A DNA stretch of 42,426 bases, taken from a bacterium. GTDB lineage: Bacteria > Oederibacteriota > JAAXVQ01 > JAUVAV01. This document shows, in pieces, positions 1,497-42,370 of this stretch (position 1 is the first letter of the stretch; the number at the start of each line of letters is the position of its first letter). A program made the translations under genes and the position numbers. The notes below the pieces were generated by a model. It worked only from the letters and a program-made list of their open reading frames with translations. It did not search any database and had not been told where the DNA came from. The stretch is taken from positions 84,352 through 126,777 of the forward strand of contig JAIORK010000037.1 of the NCBI GenBank assembly GCA_021108215.1. The letters are read 5' to 3'.

Positions 1497-1901
1497 CTAA
1501 CGCTTGCTCGGCACCTCAATAAAAAAACGTGCTGGAATTTTTTCTTGTGACTTTGCAGCAAAGGTCACCAACACCTCGTATTTTCCCGGTTTGGGAATCA
1601 CGATCCAACCGCGCCAATCCCGGCCGGGTCCGGATTTAAGTATAATGCTTTTACCCTTATCCTGACCCCTTTCCCGCAGTTCAAGTTCCGCTGCTGCGAT
1701 CTCTAAAATCCGGTAATCCCTGTCCTGAATTCGAATGGCCGCTTGTATCTCGCCCACCTGTGCCTGCCGCGGGGTAGTATAAAATGTAGCCAAATGATCC
1801 TGCGTCCAGACAGTCTGTTTTTGCAACCCGCAACCGGCTAAAAGGGATACGAGGCTCATCAGCACCAGCAATCTTTTTCCTTGAGCGACCCAAAAATTCA
1901 T
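1497..1901 (-). CDS. Predicted lipoprotein of unknown function
   Basis: The protein has 134 residues. Its N-terminus has a positively charged start, a hydrophobic core and the lipobox LLAGC, so it is expected to be lipid-anchored after cleavage before Cys24. The rest is a small predicted beta-rich domain ending PGKYEVLVTFAAKSQEKIPARFFIEV. This looks like an immunoglobulin-like or YtkA/FixH-like periplasmic fold, but I do not recognise a firm family. The ATG at 1901 overlaps the metW stop (ATGA), implying translational coupling inside the metX-metW transcript, an odd place for an envelope protein. No catalytic motif is visible. Confidence 0.75.
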   Translation of the reverse strand: MNFWVAQGKRLLVLMSLVSLLAGCGLQKQTVWTQDHLATFYTTPRQAQVGEIQAAIRIQDRDYRILEIAAAELELRERGQDKGKSIILKSGPGRDWRGWIVIPKPGKYEVLVTFAAKSQEKIPARFFIEVPSKR

Positions 1902-2536
1902 GACGGGTCCTGACTTGTAATCACAAACAACCCTTCATCTGCAAAAAAATTGGGTAGAAAAGAAACTGTGTTGGCTTTGTCACGCCGATTATTTTTCAAT
2001 AGACTGATTTTCTTTAAAATAGTGATCTTCCGTGCCTTACAAAAGTGTATAAAATCTTGAATCGTCAAAAGATGAATATTGGGCGTATTGTACCAGTCAA
2101 AAGGTAATTTATTGGTTCTGGGCATACAACCGCGCAGCATAAGATTTTTTCGAATTCGCCAATAGCCAAAATTCGGAAACGATATAATTGCTTTTTTTCC
2201 AACCCGCAGCATTTCCTCAATAACAAAATCCGGCCGATGAATTGCCTGGAGGGTTTGATTGAGCACCACATAATCATAGGTGGCATTCCCATAATCCGCC
2301 AAACCGGCATCGATATCTCCTTGAAAAACGGATAACCCTTTATGAATACAGGCAATCACCGCATCCTGTTTAATTTCCACGCCCCTGGCATGAACCTGAC
2401 GTTCTTTAATCAATCGTACCAGCAGGGAACCATTGCCGCAACCCAGATCCAAAACCCGGCTTCCCTTCTCTATTAAAGAGACCACAACATCATAATCAGA
2501 GAGTAAAATATTTTCATAAATTCTATTCTGCACCAT
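1898..2536 (-). CDS. metW: MetW methyltransferase-like protein
   Basis: The 212-residue protein matches MetW. It shows a class I SAM-binding glycine-rich motif VLDLGCGNGSLL at about residues 29-40, the VVLNQTLQAI segment, and FPNFGYWRIRKNLMLRG, which is highly characteristic of this family. MetW works with MetX in methionine synthesis in many proteobacteria and relatives and is thought to be needed for full homoserine acetyltransferase activity. The start codon overlaps the metX stop by one base (TGATG), a standard coupled arrangement, and the gene end overlaps the following lipoprotein by four bases. Length is typical. Confidence 0.95.
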   Translation of the reverse strand: MVQNRIYENILLSDYDVVVSLIEKGSRVLDLGCGNGSLLVRLIKERQVHARGVEIKQDAVIACIHKGLSVFQGDIDAGLADYGNATYDYVVLNQTLQAIHRPDFVIEEMLRVGKKAIISFPNFGYWRIRKNLMLRGCMPRTNKLPFDWYNTPNIHLLTIQDFIHFCKARKITILKKISLLKNNRRDKANTVSFLPNFFADEGLFVITSQDPS

Positions 2537-3714
2537 CAGGCACCACCGGATTGATATAGATTATCCAGAAAACTATCCACCACCCGATTAAGTGTTTCCG
2601 AAGAGATTAAAAATGCATCATGCCCGTAATCCGAGTCCATCTCCAGATAAGAAACATCGCTGTTGTTCTGTCGAAGTGCCTTCACCAGCTCTTTCGACTG
2701 CCTGGAAGGAAAAAGCCAATCCGAAGTAAAAGACAGGACCAGGGTCTTGGCCTGAATACGGGCACACGCTTTCTCCAGACTTCCTTTGCCCCAGTCCGCA
2801 GCCGCATTGTAATAATCCATCGCCTTGGTGATGTATAAATAGGTGTTCGCGTCAAAACGCTGTACAAACCGGAGGCCCTGATAATGTAAATAACTTTCCA
2901 CCTCAAATTCTTTGCTGAATTCATACCCATATTCTTCCCGGTTTTGAAGACGCCTTCCAAATTTTTTATCCATCGATTTTTCGGAAAGATAGGTTATATG
3001 ACCGATCATTCTGGCAATTGCCAGTCCGGTTTCCGGACGGCTTTCCTTATCATAATAGTCCCCCTTTTGCCAATGGGGATCAGAAATAATTGCCTGCCGA
3101 CCGACCTCATTAAACGCTATTGATTGCGGCGAAAGCTGTGACGTGGAAGCAAAAATCATCGCAGAGCGCACACTGTCCGGGAAACGCAGCATCCATTCCA
3201 ATACTGCCATCCCTCCCATCGAGCCTCCGGCCATGGAAAAAAGCTGCTGAACACCAAATTCTTCGACCACCATTTTTTGTGCCCTGACCATATCTCCAAT
3301 GGTCAACATGGGAAACGCCATGCCGTAGGGTTTCCCTGTCTCCGGATTGACGGAAGAAGGGCCGGTCGATCCCTGGCATCCGCCAAGTACATTGGTGCAA
3401 AGGATAAAATAGCGGTTGGTATCAAATGCCTTTCCCGGCCCAATCATAAAATCCCACCATCCGGTTTTTTTATCTTCAGGTTGATGCCGGCCGGCAGCGT
3501 GGGCATCGCCGGTTAACGCATGAAGGATTAAAACAGCGTTATCCTTTTGCGCATTCAAGTGTCCATAGGTCTCATACGCAATCTCGATCTCCTTGAGCGA
3601 ACGACCGCATTCCAGGTTAAATCCTTCCGCTGGAAGCTTCAACCGCATTTTCCGGAGCTCAATAATCCCTGCAGAACCTGATTCAGCAATGATTGGATTG
3701 GTCTTCTCAGCCAA
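2536..3714 (-). CDS. metX: Homoserine O-acetyltransferase MetX
   Basis: The 392-residue alpha/beta-hydrolase converts homoserine and acetyl-CoA (or succinyl-CoA in some clades) to O-acylhomoserine, the committed step to methionine. Visible landmarks are NAVLILHALTGDAHAAG, the LGGCQGSTGPSS segment, the nucleophile elbow GGSMGGM (catalytic Ser near residue 167), and the C-terminal DYGHDAFL containing the catalytic His. The start is TTG at 3714, supported by an AAGGAG ribosome-binding site eight bases upstream; the first internal ATG would cut into the conserved N-terminus. The gene lies directly behind a SAM riboswitch and terminator, and is followed by metW with a one-base overlap. Acyl donor specificity is not resolved. 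Confidence 0.96.
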   Translation of the reverse strand: MAEKTNPIIAESGSAGIIELRKMRLKLPAEGFNLECGRSLKEIEIAYETYGHLNAQKDNAVLILHALTGDAHAAGRHQPEDKKTGWWDFMIGPGKAFDTNRYFILCTNVLGGCQGSTGPSSVNPETGKPYGMAFPMLTIGDMVRAQKMVVEEFGVQQLFSMAGGSMGGMAVLEWMLRFPDSVRSAMIFASTSQLSPQSIAFNEVGRQAIISDPHWQKGDYYDKESRPETGLAIARMIGHITYLSEKSMDKKFGRRLQNREEYGYEFSKEFEVESYLHYQGLRFVQRFDANTYLYITKAMDYYNAAADWGKGSLEKACARIQAKTLVLSFTSDWLFPSRQSKELVKALRQNNSDVSYLEMDSDYGHDAFLISSETLNRVVDSFLDNLYQSGGA

Positions 3715-3777
3715 AAAATAACTCCTTTTGTGTAAAAATTGCCCTGGCGCGGAGCCGCCCGATGATGGCCCGCATTT

Positions 3778-3806
3778 AAAAAAACCTCTCCGAAAATCCG
3801 AAGAGG
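3778..3806 (-). terminator. Riboswitch-controlled intrinsic terminator before metX
   Basis: On the minus strand a hairpin (stem about 10 bp with two G-U pairs, 3785-3806) is followed by seven T residues (3784-3778). An alternative pairing, GGAGAGGC (3831-3838) with GCCTCTTC (3800-3807), would act as antiterminator and excludes both the terminator and the lower part of P1. This is the expected off-switch when SAM is bound. Confidence 0.85.
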
Positions 3807-3942
3807 CAACTTTGGTTTTCCAAATCCCACGCCTCTCCTTATCTTTCCGACCCTTCCAGCGGACCGAGAAATTGGCACCATTTATTTTTCAGCGCGGACT
3901 CGAAAAACCGGTTGCCGTGGCGTACGCCACTCTGGATAAGGA
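3778..3942 (-). promoter_or_regulatory. SAM-clan riboswitch (SAM-I-like core, abbreviated P2) with expression platform
   Basis: Read on the minus strand, the leader of metX has a P1 helix made of CTTATC (3935-3940) and GATAAG (3838-3843). The conserved SAM-I core pieces follow in order: AGAG, GGCAACC (3908-3914), GGTGCCAATT (3871-3880), a P4 hairpin (about 3848-3868), and GGAAAGATAAG. P2 is only a short palindromic hairpin (GTGGCGTACGCCAC, 3919-3932). The kink-turn, P2b and loop of classical SAM-I are absent. P3 is TTTTTC/GAAAAA with a loop at about 3891-3900. A terminator follows P4 and P1. Position in front of metX fits SAM-dependent repression of methionine synthesis. Core recognition is firm; assignment to SAM-I/IV rather than reduced SAM-I is inference. 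Confidence 0.88.
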
Positions 3943-3979: not shown

Positions 3980-4009
3980 AGCATATCAAAACAGCGAATC
4001 ATTTGGCAA
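3980..4009 (-). promoter_or_regulatory. Candidate sigma-70 promoter of the metX operon
   Basis: On the minus strand TTGCCA (4004-4009) and TATGCT (3980-3985) are separated by 18 bases, with a TG extending the -10 element. Transcription would begin about 30 bases before the riboswitch P1 helix. Confidence 0.55.
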
Positions 4010-5872: not shown

Positions 5873-7177
5873 TTATCCGTTAACGCGTCGCTTAAAAGGA
5901 ATGATCTCTGCCTGCCCGGAGCGTTTCCCTGCCTTTTTCCTTTTTTTCACTACTTTGCGTTTCTGTGCCGCCAGTGACACAACATTATTTTTTTTACTAA
6001 CCGCAGTTTTCTTTTTCACCACAGTTTTTTTCTGTACTACTTTTTTTGCCACAGTTTTCTTGACTACTTTTTTCTTGACCGCTTTTTTAACGTTTTTCTT
6101 TAGTACCGTTTTTTTTACCACTTTTTTAGTCGGTTTCTTTTCACGGCGCTTTTTTACAATTTTTTTAACTGCTTTCTTTTTAGTCCGTGCTGCAGCTGCC
6201 TGACGCACTTTCACCACCGCAGAGGCCTTCTTTTCTTCAAGCTTCGCAGCAATACCCGGCAAATCATCCTGCTTGGGCTTCGCCATAACGAAAGGTTTGG
6301 CTGTAACAACCGGTTTGGCTGTAACAACCGGTTTGGCTGTGACAACCGGTTTGGCTGTGACAACCGGTTTGGCTGTGACAACCGGTTTGGCTGCCACCGT
6401 CTCCGACGGATGACGCTGTGGTTTCCCAACAACCTGGGGCTGTGCTGTATGCTGCGAAACGGCCTTCGCTTTCATTTGAACTTGGCGAGACATTTGCTTC
6501 CGATTTCTGATAATGATAAAAGCAATCACAACCACGAGGATTAAAATAATACCGGCAATCACCGCCAACAGGGAATATGATTTTCCCAAAGACCTGTCTT
6601 TTTTTTCCGGCACCGATACAATCGGAGCCGCCATCTTCCCTACGCTGGATTCATCTTCCGGAAACACAGCTTGCATATCAACAGGTCCGGACTTACGAGC
6701 TGATTCCAAAACAACTTCATCTTCACCAACACCAGTGCTTTGGCTTCCCATAGACATCAAAACATTTTTTTCTGCCGGAGCCTCTGTATCCGGAAGTCCG
6801 GAGGAATACTCTGATATCCCTGCCCGTTTTGGCACATTGTCTGTAGAAATTTTCTCCAACGCATCTGATACAGTGTGTGTTGCTGATGATGTTTTTTCCC
6901 GTTGCGCTGTCGGGAGTTTCTTTGTCCTAAGTTTTTCCTTGGCGCTGCTTTTTGAATACTTGGAAACCGCCTTCTGAGATTTTCTGATAACATTTGTTGG
7001 TTGTGCAGTTGCTGCAACTTGTTTAACCACCGGTTGCGTTACCGGGACAACGGTAGGACTCTGCAGGGTTATAACCTCTGCTTTTTCAACAACCTCTTTT
7101 TTCTGGGATGTTGTACACGCAATGATACCCAGTAGTCCACCTACCACAATCAAAAGTGCAATTTGCCGCAGTTTCAT
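5873..7177 (-). CDS. Lysine-rich, repeat-containing membrane lipoprotein
   Basis: The 434-residue product starts with a signal peptide and lipobox (GIIACTTS), followed by a low-complexity Ser/Thr/Glu-rich region. A strong transmembrane helix lies near residues 202-225 (LLAVIAGIILILVVVIAFII) with RNRKQ directly after it, and then tandem VVTAKP repeats (about residues 262-297). A long C-terminal tail of about 110 residues is dominated by Lys, Ala and Val in AVKKKVVKK-type units, like histone H1 or AlgP tails. If the N-terminus is exported and lipidated, the transmembrane helix would return the basic tail to the cytoplasm, where it could bind nucleic acid or acidic surfaces. I recognise no named family. 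It follows the NtrC-like regulator gene by 34 bases. Confidence 0.75.
   Translation of the reverse strand: MKLRQIALLIVVGGLLGIIACTTSQKKEVVEKAEVITLQSPTVVPVTQPVVKQVAATAQPTNVIRKSQKAVSKYSKSSAKEKLRTKKLPTAQREKTSSATHTVSDALEKISTDNVPKRAGISEYSSGLPDTEAPAEKNVLMSMGSQSTGVGEDEVVLESARKSGPVDMQAVFPEDESSVGKMAAPIVSVPEKKDRSLGKSYSLLAVIAGIILILVVVIAFIIIRNRKQMSRQVQMKAKAVSQHTAQPQVVGKPQRHPSETVAAKPVVTAKPVVTAKPVVTAKPVVTAKPVVTAKPFVMAKPKQDDLPGIAAKLEEKKASAVVKVRQAAAARTKKKAVKKIVKKRREKKPTKKVVKKTVLKKNVKKAVKKKVVKKTVAKKVVQKKTVVKKKTAVSKKNNVVSLAAQKRKVVKKRKKAGKRSGQAEIIPFKRRVNG
6294..6393 (-). repeat. 18-bp tandem repeat encoding VVTAKP units
   Basis: Five to six near-identical copies of an 18-base unit (plus-strand GGTTTGGCTGTRACAACC) run through this stretch and encode a VVTAKP array inside the lysine-rich lipoprotein. 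Copies differ at one third-position base, so the array is young and prone to length change. Confidence 0.9.
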
Positions 7178-8768: not shown

Positions 8769-8842
8769 TGGAGGCGGCACTCGGAATCGAACCGAGGATG
8801 AGGGTTTTGCAGACCCTGGCCTTACCACTTGGCGATGCCGCC
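8769..8842 (-). tRNA. tRNA-Cys (GCA)
   Basis: The minus strand folds as a full cloverleaf: acceptor GGCGGCA/TGCCGCC, anticodon stem AGGGT/ACCCT with loop CTGCAAA (anticodon GCA), and TC loop GGTTCGATTCC. U is at the discriminator position, as usual for Cys, and CCA is encoded. Confidence 0.95.
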
Positions 8843-8972
8843 ATAAAAATTCGCAAACTTATATTTCACGATAAAAATCCGCAGGCTACAAAGCGTCCCG
8901 AGGATCGATATTTATTCCCGTCGGGGAATCACTCGGCACCCTGCATTCAACATTCGCCGGACACAAGCCGGA

Positions 8973-9156
8973 CAGGCTGCCCCGACCTGATGGATGGTAT
9001 CTTTGGGATGCTTCACAGCCCATTGTGTTCGCGCTGGCACGATAACAAATCCACAGGCTTACCCGGCATTCGCCGGGCAGGCTGCCCCGACCTGATGGAT
9101 GGTATCTTTGGGACGCTTCGCAGCCCATTGTGTTCGCGCTGGCACGATAACAAATC
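8973..9156. repeat. Two direct repeats of about 79 bp with 105-bp period between tRNA genes
   Basis: Copy one (8973-9051) and copy two (9078-9156) differ at two positions only. Each is introduced by a GC-rich CATTCGCCGG-type palindrome like those at 24.1 and 31.4 kb. No convincing reading frame lies in them; a long plus-strand frame here crosses both tRNA genes and is not real. The 345-bp space between the two tRNA genes otherwise holds nothing I recognise. Confidence 0.85.
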
Positions 9157-9190: not shown

Positions 9191-9265
9191 TGGAGCGGGA
9201 AATGGGGTTCGAACCCACGACATCTACCTTGGCAAGGTAGCGCTCTACCACTGAGCTACTCCCGC
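9191..9265 (-). tRNA. tRNA-Gly (GCC)
   Basis: The minus strand gives acceptor GCGGGAG, D arm AGCTCAGTGGTAGAGC, anticodon stem CTACC/GGTAG with loop TTGCCAA (anticodon GCC), T arm GTGGGTTCGAACCCCAT, and encoded TCCA end. Confidence 0.97.
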
Positions 9266-31674: not shown

Positions 31675-33999
31675 CTATTTAGTAATTGCCAGCTTGGACT
31701 GATAACAATTGCTGGTACCATCTGTATAAACCACTTTTACCTTTACAATATAAATACCTGCACCCACCTGGTGGCATTCCCATTTTGTAGAAACACCTCG
31801 TGAATTTTGTTCTGCGTTTTGTTTGATTTCAGCAATTTTCTCCCCTGCCATATTGTAAATCCTTATAAAAACCGTTCCTGTCGCGGGCATCGGATGGGCA
31901 AAATATATTTCTTCCCTGGCAGGATTGGGAAAGACCATCAAATCACCTTCACTGAAATCCGCAGTGCGAGGCGTCCGTATCGCTGTAGGTGTTTCTGTCG
32001 CTGTCACTGTTTGTGTCCATGTGATCGTTGCGGTTCCGGTGATGGTCACAACCGGCGTCCGTGTCGCTGTAGGTGTTTCTGTCGCTGTCACTGTTTGTGT
32101 CCATGTGATCGTTGCGGTTCCGGTGATGGTCACAACCGGCGTCCGTGTCGCTGTAGGTGTTTCTGTCGCTGTCACTGTTTGTGTCCATGTGATCGTTGCG
32201 GTTCCGGTGATGGTCACAACCGGCGTCCGTGTCGCTGTAGGTGTTTCTGTCGCTGTCACTGTTTGTGTCCATGTGATCGTTGCGGTTCCGGTGATGGTCA
32301 CAACCGGCGTCTGCGTACCGGTGGGTGATATTGTTGCTGTCGGACTCACTGTGGGTGAAATCGTGATGGTCGGTGACGGTGTAAACACATCCTGCGCGGT
32401 TGCCGGCGGACTGTTTGAAACCGTTGCGCTGTTTCCCGCCTCATCTACGGAAAGTACGGAAAAATAATAGCTGTTCCCCGGAACCAGGCCGGAAACCGTA
32501 TAACTTTCACTCTGACCTGCACTTTGCGGTACCATGTTCTGAACCACTTGGGTTGCATTGTTTCTAAAATCCCAAATCGTTGTTATCACTGCGCCGTCAT
32601 GCCCAATATCATAGATCCAAACCGGATCCGAAACATCATCCGCCGGGGCGGTCCAAACAAGATCAACCTCTCCGGGATTACTCCCGGTTACTGCCGCTAA
32701 ATCGGTGATCGCGGCCGGTCCGTTTTGATCTGTGCGTTTAAAATAGATTTCATAATTACTGTCACGATTATCCGCCCAGGCAATATAGTGTATGCTCACT
32801 GATGTTGAAAAAGGATCATTGCCCGTAATCGACGGCAGAATTGAATCAGCAGCATTCGACGTTAACCTCACCACCGGATCAAACATAATGGCACCGCCGC
32901 CCATGCCTTCACGCATATATAATTCATAATTGCCGTCACGATTGTCCTGCCAAACAACCAAGTGTTCCGAGCTGGTGGAACACATGGCCAACCAATCAGG
33001 TGCGACTGCAAAACTAGTTAAGGTATTGGGCGCAATTCCCGAAAAAAACATGCCATCATCCCAAATGATTGGCAACCCTGAATCAGTGCGCCCGGTTTCC
33101 CAATAGACCTGGTCCGTGCCTTGACGATTATCTAAAAAACCAACTTCAACACCTGTCGCCGTATCGCCGGAAACAACAATATCCGGATGACGCGCTGAAC
33201 TGGCGCCAAATTTAAAACTAATATCGTACGATCCCGGCGCACCATTTCCGTCTGTCCAGATCACGCCGCCATCAACGCTCTGCGTGAAATAAATACTGCC
33301 GGCTGCTCCCGGTGTTTCCTCCCAGGCAATATAAAGGTTCGGATTAGATCCCATACCGCCATTGAGTGTTGAAATGGCAGGCAGCGTCGCACTGCTTGAA
33401 TCCACTTTAATAGACACAGTCGCAGCCACAGTTACATTTCGATAATAAATTTTTGAACTGCCGGAAGTATTATCCGCCCAGACAACGTGTGTCCCAAAAG
33501 TATTGATGACTGTACGCGGCCGGCTAAAAGCAGCGCCGCTGTCTCCCCGGTTCGACACATTGGTAACCTGACCCGGGATATTTTGTAAATCCATCCAGGT
33601 AGATCCTTGATCCAAACTTTTCATGGTATAAATATCCGGTGCGCCATTACGGTAATCCAACCAGGTCAGCAGCAGTGTATTGGGCGCATACCAATAAAGC
33701 TGAGGATAAACAGCATCAGCCGTATGATTGGTGATGTTGGTTGCAGCCGACCAGGTCAACCCTTGATCATAACTGCGACTAAAATAAATTCCCCAATAAC
33801 CATTGCGATCATCCGTCCAAGCCGCATAAACGGAATTACCCGTAGCATTACAGATGATGGTCGGATAAAGGGATTGCCCGGCATCATTGGTCAACCGATG
33901 ATCATTTGTCCAACCGGTTGGCATGGCAAACACCTGCGAGAACAGAAAAAAGACAACACCAAAGAAAAAAAGAGCACAAAACATTTTTTTTGTACGCAT
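31675..33999 (-). CDS. Secreted BNR-repeat/fibronectin III protein with Thr-Pro linker and FlgD-like C-terminus
   Basis: The ATG at 33999 is preceded by GGAGGGG and gives a clean signal peptide ([20 protein letters not shown]); the longer frame adds no useful sequence. The 774-residue protein has BNR/sialidase-like units to about residue 425 ([28 protein letters not shown]). A fibronectin type III domain follows (about 428-535: [20 protein letters not shown]), then a Thr/Pro-rich region with four perfect 28-residue repeats (about 543-678). A FlgD-like/secretion-sorting beta domain ends it ([34 protein letters not shown]). No sialidase active-site arginines are evident, so it is likely a binding or adhesion protein. 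Confidence 0.85.
31971..32312 (-). repeat. 84-bp tandem repeat array in the BNR-protein linker
   Basis: Four copies of an 84-base unit (period seen at 31985, 32069, 32153, 32237) encode 28-residue units containing [20 protein letters not shown]. They are near-perfect, differing mainly at the first copy. This is a coding minisatellite subject to expansion. Confidence 0.93.
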
Positions 34000-34182
34000 A
34001 TTACCCCTCCACTTATTGGATACTGGTAAGACATGTTCACTTAAACTGCGGTTCCGGGGTGGCAGCAAAATCTATAATTTCCAGTGAACCATTTTTTTTA
34101 TCCGCCCACACACCCTATTTTCCGCCTAAAAAAAGAAAAATACGCTATACTTAATCATAGCATTAAACGAGGTTATAAAGAA

Positions 34183-39385: not shown

Positions 39386-42370
39386 TTAACCTGCCTGGTC
39401 GCCTTCTCCCGCCCATTCCGCACTACCTACCAATCCACTGCTGCTGCCATGATATACATAAGCCCGGCCATTGGGGAATTGATACGCACCGACCACAACA
39501 TCACCATAGCCATCGTTATCTACATCCCCGGCAGTGGCAACTGAGTACCCGAACTGTACACTATTTTGACCGCCATATGCGGTCCAAGAAAAATTGGTGC
39601 CGAGCCCACCAGATCCACCATGATAGATATATACTCGCCCTTCATTGCTCTGCGTACCGTCATACAAATTAGCTCCAACAACAACATCACTATACCCATC
39701 ACTATTCACATCGCCGGCTGAAGCCACAGAATGTCCATATTGGGCGTTAGTCTGATCGCTCTCTTGAGACCAATCCGCCACACTGCTCAGTCCTCCCGCA
39801 TGCCCTAAATACAGAAACGCGCGCCCTTCATCGGTCTGACCGTTGTCATAAAGAGGCTCACCAATAATTACATCACTAAAACCATCGCCATTTACATCAC
39901 CGGCTGACGAAACAGAATATCCAAATTGCGAATTGACTTGTCCTCCATCCGCAAACCATAAAGAATTACTATCCAGACCGCTTGCGCTTCCAGTATGAAG
40001 ATATACCCGCCCTTGATTATCATAATAAGGTGCTCCAAGAAGAATATCACTGTACCCATCACCATTTACATCCCCTGTACAAGCAACACTATAGCCCAAC
40101 TGCGCATTGGCTTGGTTGCTTTCCACAGTCCAAGCCGGGCTGGCACCTACACCGCTGGCATTTCCTAAATAAACATAGGCCCGGCCTTCATTTGTCTCAC
40201 CATTGCTGTATTGGGGTGAACCCACCACAATGTCACAAAATCCATCACCATTCACATCGCCGGCGGTTGATACAGAAAAACCAAAAAATTCATCAGCCAA
40301 AGTTCCTTCCAAAATCTGATCTGCAATGGTACTCAACCCATCGGATTTGCCATGAAAGATAAATACATTTCCAATATTTGAAAGACCTGTATCATAATAA
40401 GGCACGCCTAGCATAACATCCCCATACCCATCACCATTCACATCCCCAGCACTCGCCAGACAATATCCCAATTGTGCGCTTGTTTGATTACTCTCCGCTG
40501 TCCATACAGCGTTGGATGTCAAACCAGATGATGAACCATGATAAACATACGCTCGGCCTTCATTTGTTTCACCATTATCATACTCAAGAGCGCCTACAAT
40601 AACATCGCTATAGCCATCACCATTTACATCTCCGGCGCTGCTCACCGAGCATCCATATTTTGCATCTATTTGGTTGCCCTCTGTTACCCAGATTGGATTT
40701 GTGTCTAACCCAGACGAAGAACCTTGATAGATAAATGCCCGGCCCTCTCCTGATTCTCCATTATTGTAGTTAAGTGCACTTACAATAACATCTCCATAAC
40801 CATCACCATTCACATCCCCGGCATTGCCAATTGAATGCCCAAACCAAACATTTAATTGATCTCCATTTGCTGTCCAAACAGGCGTTGTGGATAACCCGGA
40901 GGATGAGCCGGGATAAACAAATACCCGGCCGCCTCTATATAACCCATTGTTATAGTATTTTGCGCCAACAATAACATCACTATAACCATCGCCATTCACA
41001 TCTCCGGCACTGCTCACTGCATTTGCAATGTTTCCGTCCTCCTGATCACCATCTACAATCCAGGCCGGATTTACGGCCAAACCGGCAAGCGACCCTAAAT
41101 ATACATATACTCGGCCTTCATTGGTCTGACTAGTAACCGGCTCATTGTCATACAGATATGCCCCAACAATGACATCTCCATAACCGTCGCCATTCACATC
41201 TCCGGCACTACTTACAGATATACCGAACTGAGCATATGCTTGATTACTCTCAGCAGTCCAGTTTGCTGTGGCTGATAAACCTGTCGCAGACCCTAGATAC
41301 ACATACGCGCGGCCTTCATCATCTTCCCCATTATCAAAATACTGAGCACCTACAATCACATCTCCATAACCATCTCCATTTACATCTCCGGCACTACTCA
41401 CTGAGGTTCCAAATCTTGCTTGATCCTGATTACTCTCGGCAGTCCAATCGGGTGTAGATGCCAAACCAGTTACTGATCCGAGATATATATACGCTCGACC
41501 TTCCAAACTCTGACCATTACTAAAGGTACTCGCACCTATAATGATATCCCCATAGCCATCATCATTCACATCTCCAGCACTGCCTACAGAAAAACCAAAG
41601 GAAGCGTTTGCGGCATTGCTCTCGGCTGTCCAAATCGGATTAATAGCCAGGCCGGATGTTGAACCAAGATACGCATACACCCGCCCTTCATTGCTCTCAC
41701 CGTTGTCATAACCAGTTGCGCTAACAATCACATCACTATAACCATCTCCATTCACATCTCCGGCTGAAGCCACAGAATATCCAAAAGCAGCACCTTCCTG
41801 ATTGCTCTCTGCGGTCCAGGCCGGTGTGGTTAAGAGTGGATCAATCATGATAGGATAGTGAGCTCCCTGATCATTAATACTCAACACAATAGCATGATTT
41901 TCCAGCGCCATGCTTGCCTGCAATTTCCGTCCGCGAGCATCCCAGGCTTTAAGTTTGGCATATTTCAATACCACAGCTCCCTGATTATTAATAAATTCAA
42001 TGAATCGGCCTTTGATATCTACTCGGCCTTCTAGCCCCTCAATCGGTTGCGAGACAATTCTGACCGGTTTTCCCAAAACTTCACCCACTACACTTCTTGG
42101 ACTCGACTTCAGAATAAAACCCTGCTCCAATCCTTCCGGCTTGTTCTCATACCATTCAATTAATTCATCCCGTATGTATTCGACCCGGTTATTGTTTGCC
42201 TGTATCCGCGACTCTCCGGTTGGATGCATCGCACCTGCACGCCCAATAAATACGGTTTGCCACTGCCAATTCCACGTATTCTCCACACCAACAATGCTCT
42301 TATCCCGAGGCTCAAGCTCCACTTTATTGGATGAAAAACGTGCACGAAAATTGTGTTCCCGGTTTGGCAT
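39386..42370 (-). CDS. FG-GAP (integrin-like) repeat protein, interrupted
   Basis: The 994-residue product carries an N-terminal region (PNREHNFRARFSS, GLEQGFILKSSPRS) typical of secreted FG-GAP proteins. Thirteen FG-GAP repeats follow, each with a Ca-binding loop DVNGDGYSD or close variant and a YDNGE..EGRAYVYLGS motif. Such repeats fold into beta-propellers, often in surface or adhesion proteins. The protein stops at TAA in the fourteenth repeat, which continues in frame afterwards. The start is also doubtful: no ribosome-binding site or signal peptide is visible, and the frame upstream is open only to a TAA at 42413, although relatives extend further. The gene may be decaying. Confidence 0.82.
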   Translation of the reverse strand: MPNREHNFRARFSSNKVELEPRDKSIVGVENTWNWQWQTVFIGRAGAMHPTGESRIQANNNRVEYIRDELIEWYENKPEGLEQGFILKSSPRSVVGEVLGKPVRIVSQPIEGLEGRVDIKGRFIEFINNQGAVVLKYAKLKAWDARGRKLQASMALENHAIVLSINDQGAHYPIMIDPLLTTPAWTAESNQEGAAFGYSVASAGDVNGDGYSDVIVSATGYDNGESNEGRVYAYLGSTSGLAINPIWTAESNAANASFGFSVGSAGDVNDDGYGDIIIGASTFSNGQSLEGRAYIYLGSVTGLASTPDWTAESNQDQARFGTSVSSAGDVNGDGYGDVIVGAQYFDNGEDDEGRAYVYLGSATGLSATANWTAESNQAYAQFGISVSSAGDVNGDGYGDVIVGAYLYDNEPVTSQTNEGRVYVYLGSLAGLAVNPAWIVDGDQEDGNIANAVSSAGDVNGDGYSDVIVGAKYYNNGLYRGGRVFVYPGSSSGLSTTPVWTANGDQLNVWFGHSIGNAGDVNGDGYGDVIVSALNYNNGESGEGRAFIYQGSSSGLDTNPIWVTEGNQIDAKYGCSVSSAGDVNGDGYSDVIVGALEYDNGETNEGRAYVYHGSSSGLTSNAVWTAESNQTSAQLGYCLASAGDVNGDGYGDVMLGVPYYDTGLSNIGNVFIFHGKSDGLSTIADQILEGTLADEFFGFSVSTAGDVNGDGFCDIVVGSPQYSNGETNEGRAYVYLGNASGVGASPAWTVESNQANAQLGYSVACTGDVNGDGYSDILLGAPYYDNQGRVYLHTGSASGLDSNSLWFADGGQVNSQFGYSVSSAGDVNGDGFSDVIIGEPLYDNGQTDEGRAFLYLGHAGGLSSVADWSQESDQTNAQYGHSVASAGDVNSDGYSDVVVGANLYDGTQSNEGRVYIYHGGSGGLGTNFSWTAYGGQNSVQFGYSVATAGDVDNDGYGDVVVGAYQFPNGRAYVYHGSSSGLVGSAEWAGEGDQAG

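Follow-up and report, generated by a model that had tools for sequence, protein, structure and literature searches.

SAM-I, SAM-IV and SAM-I/IV riboswitches have one common binding pocket and differ in the peripheral contacts around it. How one set of peripheral contacts comes to be replaced by another is an open question. SAM-IV RNAs have PK-1 and P5 and lack P4, while in SAM-I/IV RNAs P2 is undivided, PK-1 is absent and P4 is present (PMC6890682). The SAM-I/IV variants are also described as being without the P2 internal loop (PMC2864571). In them, PK-2 joins the loop of P3 to RNA on the 3' side of P1 (PMC6890682, PMC2864571), a topology found in SAM-IV as well. In the solved SAM-I/IV RNA 4L81, whose sequence is given in PMC5393176, a hairpin separates P1 from the PK-2 strand. 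SAM-I/IV RNAs are free of PK-1 and use this same pocket to bind SAM (PMC6890682, PMC5393176). Here we describe metX leaders from one bacterial order in which a swap of such contacts may be traced within the leaders of a single gene.

The locus lies in a stretch of 42,426 nucleotides, analysed as a whole and called the window below. The initial annotation had placed a SAM-type riboswitch in front of metX, with an intact SAM-I core, a 14-base palindrome as its P2 arm and neither kink-turn nor PK-1, and the sequence bears out each of these points. The SAM-I model RF00162, whose cut-off is 44.4 bits, matches the minus strand at 3942-3836 with 47.5 bits (cmscan; E = 6e-8 in the window), and on that strand we find P1, AGAG, GGCAACC, GGUGCCAAUU, the P4 helix and GAUAAG all in place. 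No second SAM element is found by cmscan in the window, nor any other RF00162 match in the whole genome. The range first annotated, 3778-3942, also includes the terminator and its U tract. Coordinates of all features are collected in Table 1.

Table 1. Features of the metX leader and the genes that follow it, in window coordinates.
Feature	Position	Strand	Basis
Sigma-70-like promoter, TTGCCA-18-TATGCT	3980..4009 (-35 4009-4004, -10 3985-3980)	-	consensus scan
5' hairpin ACUGGG-AGC-CCCAGU (6 bp), just upstream of P1	3948..3962	-	sequence
Aptamer core, P1 through P4	3835..3943	-	RF00162 match and predicted structure
P1	3943-3935 paired with 3843-3835	-	predicted structure
P2, 14-nt palindrome GUGGC-GUAC-GCCAC (GUGGCGUACGCCAC)	3917..3930	-	sequence; P2 comparison over parsed SAM-I elements
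P3 arm, about 10 bp, 3-nt 3' bulge (AAA), conserved GGCAACC and UGGUGCC	3874..3916	-	RF00162 match, predicted structure
Putative PK-2 5' strand UCCGCGCU, P3 loop	3891..3898	-	8-bp helix with 3833-3826
P4, CGGUCC / GGGUCG	3848..3866	-	predicted structure
Antiterminator 5' strand GGAGAGGC	3831..3838	-	duplex with 3807-3800, -14.9 kcal/mol
Putative PK-2 3' strand GGCGUGGG	3826..3833	-	alignment of leaders, loop/flank pairing
Intrinsic terminator GCCUCUUCGG-AUUU-UCGGAGAGGU and U tract	3777..3807 (hairpin 3807-3784)	-	sequence, folding
metX, homoserine O-acetyltransferase	2536..3714	-	NCBIfam NF001209, E = 4e-162
metW	1898..2536	-	TIGR02081, E = 2e-75

To see how this leader relates to others, we compare the metX leaders of the order, in which seven of the eight genomes have metX. 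The window's genome (G000), G002 and G003 represent three genera of one family; G001 and G005 belong to a single genus of that same family, and G006 and G007 to the sister family. In G006 and G007 the leader is a classical SAM-I element (86 and 78 bits) with a 29-nt P2 that carries the kink-turn and with a PK-1 formed by CAGA of the P2 loop and UCUG of J3/4. The leaders of G000, G002 and G003 have promoter, P1, core and terminator in common, but the kink-turn between P2a and P2b is missing from all three, and in none does the P2 loop match J3/4 to make PK-1. The junction J3/4 itself, usually CUG, reads CUC in the window RNA and in G002 and CUA in G003. Between AGAG and GGCAACC, where P2 lies, there are 13 nt in G000 (P2 is 5 bp closed by a tetraloop), 25 in G002 (with a 2-nt bulge in P2) and 24 in G003 (where P4 is weak). 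Spacers, P3 loops, P2 and P4 have all diverged among the three, and with RF00162 G002 and G003 reach 40.8 and 35.0 bits, below the cut-off that the window RNA passes.

What has been retained is the ligand pocket. By direct reading of 3943-3836, every residue on the SAM-I pocket list (PMC6890682), namely 6-8, 11-12, 44-47, 57-59 and 87 in SAM-I numbering, is kept, as AUC, GA, CAAC, UGC and the A of GAU; SAM is the predicted ligand of the window RNA. The E-value, the promoter and terminator on either side, metX downstream and the same reduced architecture in two further genera, which is what comparison of homologous metX leaders brings out, make the aptamer more than a chance match. Judged from its sequence and that of its relatives, the element is a real, conserved and functional-looking new variant of the SAM-I riboswitch.

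The direction of change can be read from the wider distribution. Because branching within the order stays unresolved in the MetX tree, the direction rests on the classical SAM-I of the sister family and of the rest of the phylum, where the other SAM-I elements above cut-off are classical. The remaining parsed SAM-I elements likewise have a classical P2 of 28-32 nt, with the sole exception of L081, a parsing error. The classical SAM-I of the sister family occupies the corresponding metX locus, and promoter, P1, flank start and terminator are the same there; this marks the reduced RNAs as descendants of SAM-I. Given that the sister family and the rest of the phylum are classical, the loss of kink-turn and PK-1 is most simply a derived state in the window's lineage. 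A further outcome is seen in G001 and G005, whose MetX is apparently about 70% identical to that of the window: their metX leaders give no SAM element with Rfam, even at E = 0.1, and no other Rfam family either. In these two leaders (L047 and L046), up to about 230 nt before metX, the promoter TTGCCA...TATTCT is kept and there are hairpins of their own; possibly metX is under another kind of control there.

With PK-1 gone, a second long-range contact may clasp the core. The loop of P3 is complementary to the strand that follows P1, from which it is separated by a 2-nt link (P1 being counted here as 8 bp), and this pairing, which the initial annotation had not mentioned, can be written for all three reduced RNAs: UCCGCGCU with GGCGUGGG in G000, UCCGCGCC with GGCGUGGA in G002 and UUUUCGCGU with GCGUGGAAA in G003. 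Directly 3' of P1, GGCGUGG is invariant in the three, where the classical sisters have GGUUGA(G/U) instead (in the alignment, GGAGAGGCGUGG as against GGAGAGGUUGA). The conserved block after P1 goes no further than the pairing strand, and the antiterminator helix does not include the GUGG portion of the block.

We compare this complementarity across 35 parsed SAM-I elements. The uninterrupted loop/flank helices are 8, 8 and 9 bp long in the reduced RNAs and at most 6 bp in the 32 others. When both strands are shuffled to control for composition, G000, G002 and G003 rank 1, 2 and 3 of 35 (p = 0.018, 0.031 and 0.083), with G003 marginal (p = 0.05-0.08) and its pairing rich in G-U and A-U. Three independent RNAs would take the top three of 35 ranks with a probability of 1 in 6545; common descent makes these three non-independent. 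By gapped duplex energy they rank 1-2, 2-4 and 3-7 (the last for G003) of 35, varying with the limits chosen. The gapped-duplex and shuffle tests repeat the first helix comparison independently of its table of stacking energies. Shuffling the short hairpin loop that RNAfold leaves over is by itself a weak test, because the minimum free energy fold closes part of the P3 loop. The duplex energies are -15.6, -18.1 and -9.8 kcal/mol, compared with -9.8 kcal/mol for the PK-2 strands of 4L81. The three related sequences are identical in the 3' strand, which therefore offers no covariation for the pseudoknot; covariation statistics on these three sequences lend weak support to P3 and P4, and at PK-2 the alignment places the G003 loop out of register. 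The signal is thus real, though not overwhelming, and we consider a new pseudoknot, formed by the P3 loop with the 3' flank, the probable clasp of the core fold.

The leader runs, on the minus strand, from promoter through aptamer and terminator to metX and then metW. A promoter pair like TTGCCA/TATGCT stands at the same site before metX in G001, G002, G003, G005, G006 and G007. By eye, the relatives' leaders have hairpins in seemingly the same place before the aptamer as the 5' hairpin of the window RNA, unrelated to it in sequence. Downstream, the terminator's 5' arm (3807-3800, GCCUCUUC) doubles as the 3' strand of an antiterminator whose 5' strand, GGAGAGGC, begins in the 3' end of P1, runs through the 2-nt link and takes in the first three bases of the putative PK-2 strand. 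The duplex of the two has the same energy in the window RNA, G002 and G003. When P1 is forced, the leaders fold into aptamer plus terminator, and when the antiterminator is forced, into a competing state that is 1 to 17 kcal/mol less stable (-56.7 and -55.6 kcal/mol, respectively, in the window). That the fold with P1 is the more stable of the two fits an OFF state stabilised by SAM.

Putting these elements together, we consider it probable that the leader is a SAM-binding transcriptional OFF switch of metX-metW, derived from SAM-I, in which PK-1 has been replaced by a PK-2 like that of SAM-I/IV. In this scheme a classical SAM-I ancestor would have lost, in the window's family, the kink-turn of the P2 arm and the loop that forms PK-1, and the new pseudoknot of UCCGCGCU with GGCGUGGG, with no P5 between, would hold the core. 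When SAM is bound, P1 and PK-2 would sequester GGAGAGGC, so that the terminator forms and metXW is off; when it is not, GGAGAGGC would pair with GCCUCUUC, the terminator would be disrupted and metXW transcribed. On the broader history, we lean slightly towards a course in which the metX leaders of one order went from classical SAM-I to PK-1-less RNAs with an independently gained, P5-less PK-2, and the element was lost in another genus.

The same data can be read in other ways. The window RNA could be a SAM-I that merely tolerates the loss of P2, with no second pseudoknot, the complementarity having arisen by chance in a G+C-rich loop and flank and been inherited by all three RNAs. Such a reading draws on there being just three related sequences, with an invariant 3' strand and a marginal G003, and on the similar gapped duplex energies attained by the GC-rich classical elements L008, L092 and L007. 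We nevertheless judge it unlikely, because the longest helices of the 35 all fall in P2-reduced RNAs, from three genera whose loops, P2 and P4 have diverged, and because the conservation of GGCGUGG exceeds the demands of the antiterminator, in a place where the sister family differs.

Slightly less probable again, in our estimate, is that the pairing is part of an alternative fold of the ligand-free RNA and not of a pseudoknot in the bound one: the P3 5' strand (GGCAACC...) and the loop would pair together with the 3' flank and so dismantle P3 and the pocket. For the full leaders of G000 and G002, the pseudoknot-free minimum free energy fold does contain that helix (-57.4 against -56.7 kcal/mol with P1 forced in G000, -81.3 against -76.3 in G002). 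Complementarity also continues beyond the loop, in the window between the P3 5' strand at 3916-3900 and the stretch that follows the pseudoknot strand, at 3825-3803 (-), and this exceeds what shuffled sequences show, with p = 0.0095 for G000 and p = 0.0005 for G002. It is absent from G003 (p = 0.73), however, whereas the loop part is found in all three RNAs; moreover, the terminator still forms in the predicted G002 fold, which would thus give no ON state, P3 is transcribed first, and the fold energies omit any pseudoknot. On these folding models, the alternative pairing of P3 strand and flank might also be a further layer of the switch. Finally, a decayed riboswitch on its way to loss, no longer sensing SAM, would have a parallel within the family in G001 and G005, which keep the metX promoter without a recognisable SAM element; yet pocket nucleotides, P1, terminator and antiterminator are retained in three genera despite diverged spacers, and we regard decay as very improbable.

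The reduced form appears to be rare. Among 384 genomes across the bacteria, a strict pattern for SAM-I with a P2 of at most 25 nt (which misses G002) picks out, apart from G000 and G003, a single and apparently fortuitous locus in G278. The three reduced RNAs also served to build a covariance model, which scores them at 117-146 bits and every other match in those genomes at 69 or less; it adds no new RNA from a further 68 genomes, all of one other phylum. Our search of open-access literature, a set short of key papers on the clan, found no description of it. The initial annotation had also offered the element as a new minimal form, which is half right: on present sequences, the 14-nt P2 stands at the far end of a small group in which the other P2 arms, also free of a kink-turn, measure 24-25 nt. 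With the standard models, such RNAs score close to the cut-offs or fall short of them, and more of them may therefore be missed.

Elsewhere in the window we note several repeats. A 105-bp unit, present in 1.8 copies that are 96% alike, occupies 8967-9156, between tRNA-Cys (8769-8842) and tRNA-Gly (9191-9265). An 84-bp unit is repeated 4.1 times at 99% identity at 31970-32311, within an ORF (31675-34068, minus strand) that encodes fibronectin III and Por secretion-tail domains, apparently a secreted protein in which the repeat has expanded recently. The lysine/alanine/valine-rich protein of 5873-7177 (-), with one hydrophobic stretch and a very basic tail, contains VVTAKP repeats, whose 18-bp unit occurs in 5.6 copies at 98%, and matches no Pfam family at E 1e-5. 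A 994-aa protein with FG-GAP repeats (39386-42370, -) has a 186-bp tandem repeat.

If the favoured switch and its history are right, these leaders would include a living intermediate between riboswitch classes, and an architecture like that of SAM-I/IV could arise from SAM-I through the swap of a tertiary clasp; G006 and G007 stand as a ready control of ancestral type beside derived RNAs from three genera. Against SAM-IV (RF00634), the likeness is one of PK-2 topology, and membership is rejected because the window RNA has P4 and no PK-1 and RF00634 gives no match in G000; nor does it match at the element in the relatives. With SAM-I/IV (RF01725; 4L81) the window RNA has in common a P2 without the division by a kink-turn, the absence of PK-1 and the presence of P4, and its P3 loop may pair 3' of P1 as theirs does. 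In this topology the description 'SAM-I/IV-like' given at first stands, down to the missing P2 internal loop; as a statement of membership it does not. RF01725 reaches 19.3 bits against a cut-off of 41.1 (and fails to match the elements of G002 and G003), the P5 hairpin that lies between P1 and the PK-2 strand in the RF01725 hits L050, L052 and L054 is missing, P1 has 8-9 bp as compared with about 5 in SAM-I/IV, and the closest relatives are classical SAM-I. With SAM-I (the S box, RF00162), the window RNA shares P1, AGAG, the GGCAACC/GGUGCC core, P3, P4, GAUAAG and a terminator-type platform; it lacks the P2 kink-turn, P2b, PK-1 and the CUG of J3/4, and gains the complementarity of P3 loop and 3' flank. 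Taken together, this RNA would at most work like SAM-I/IV without being a member of that class, and both its core sequence and its descent are those of SAM-I.
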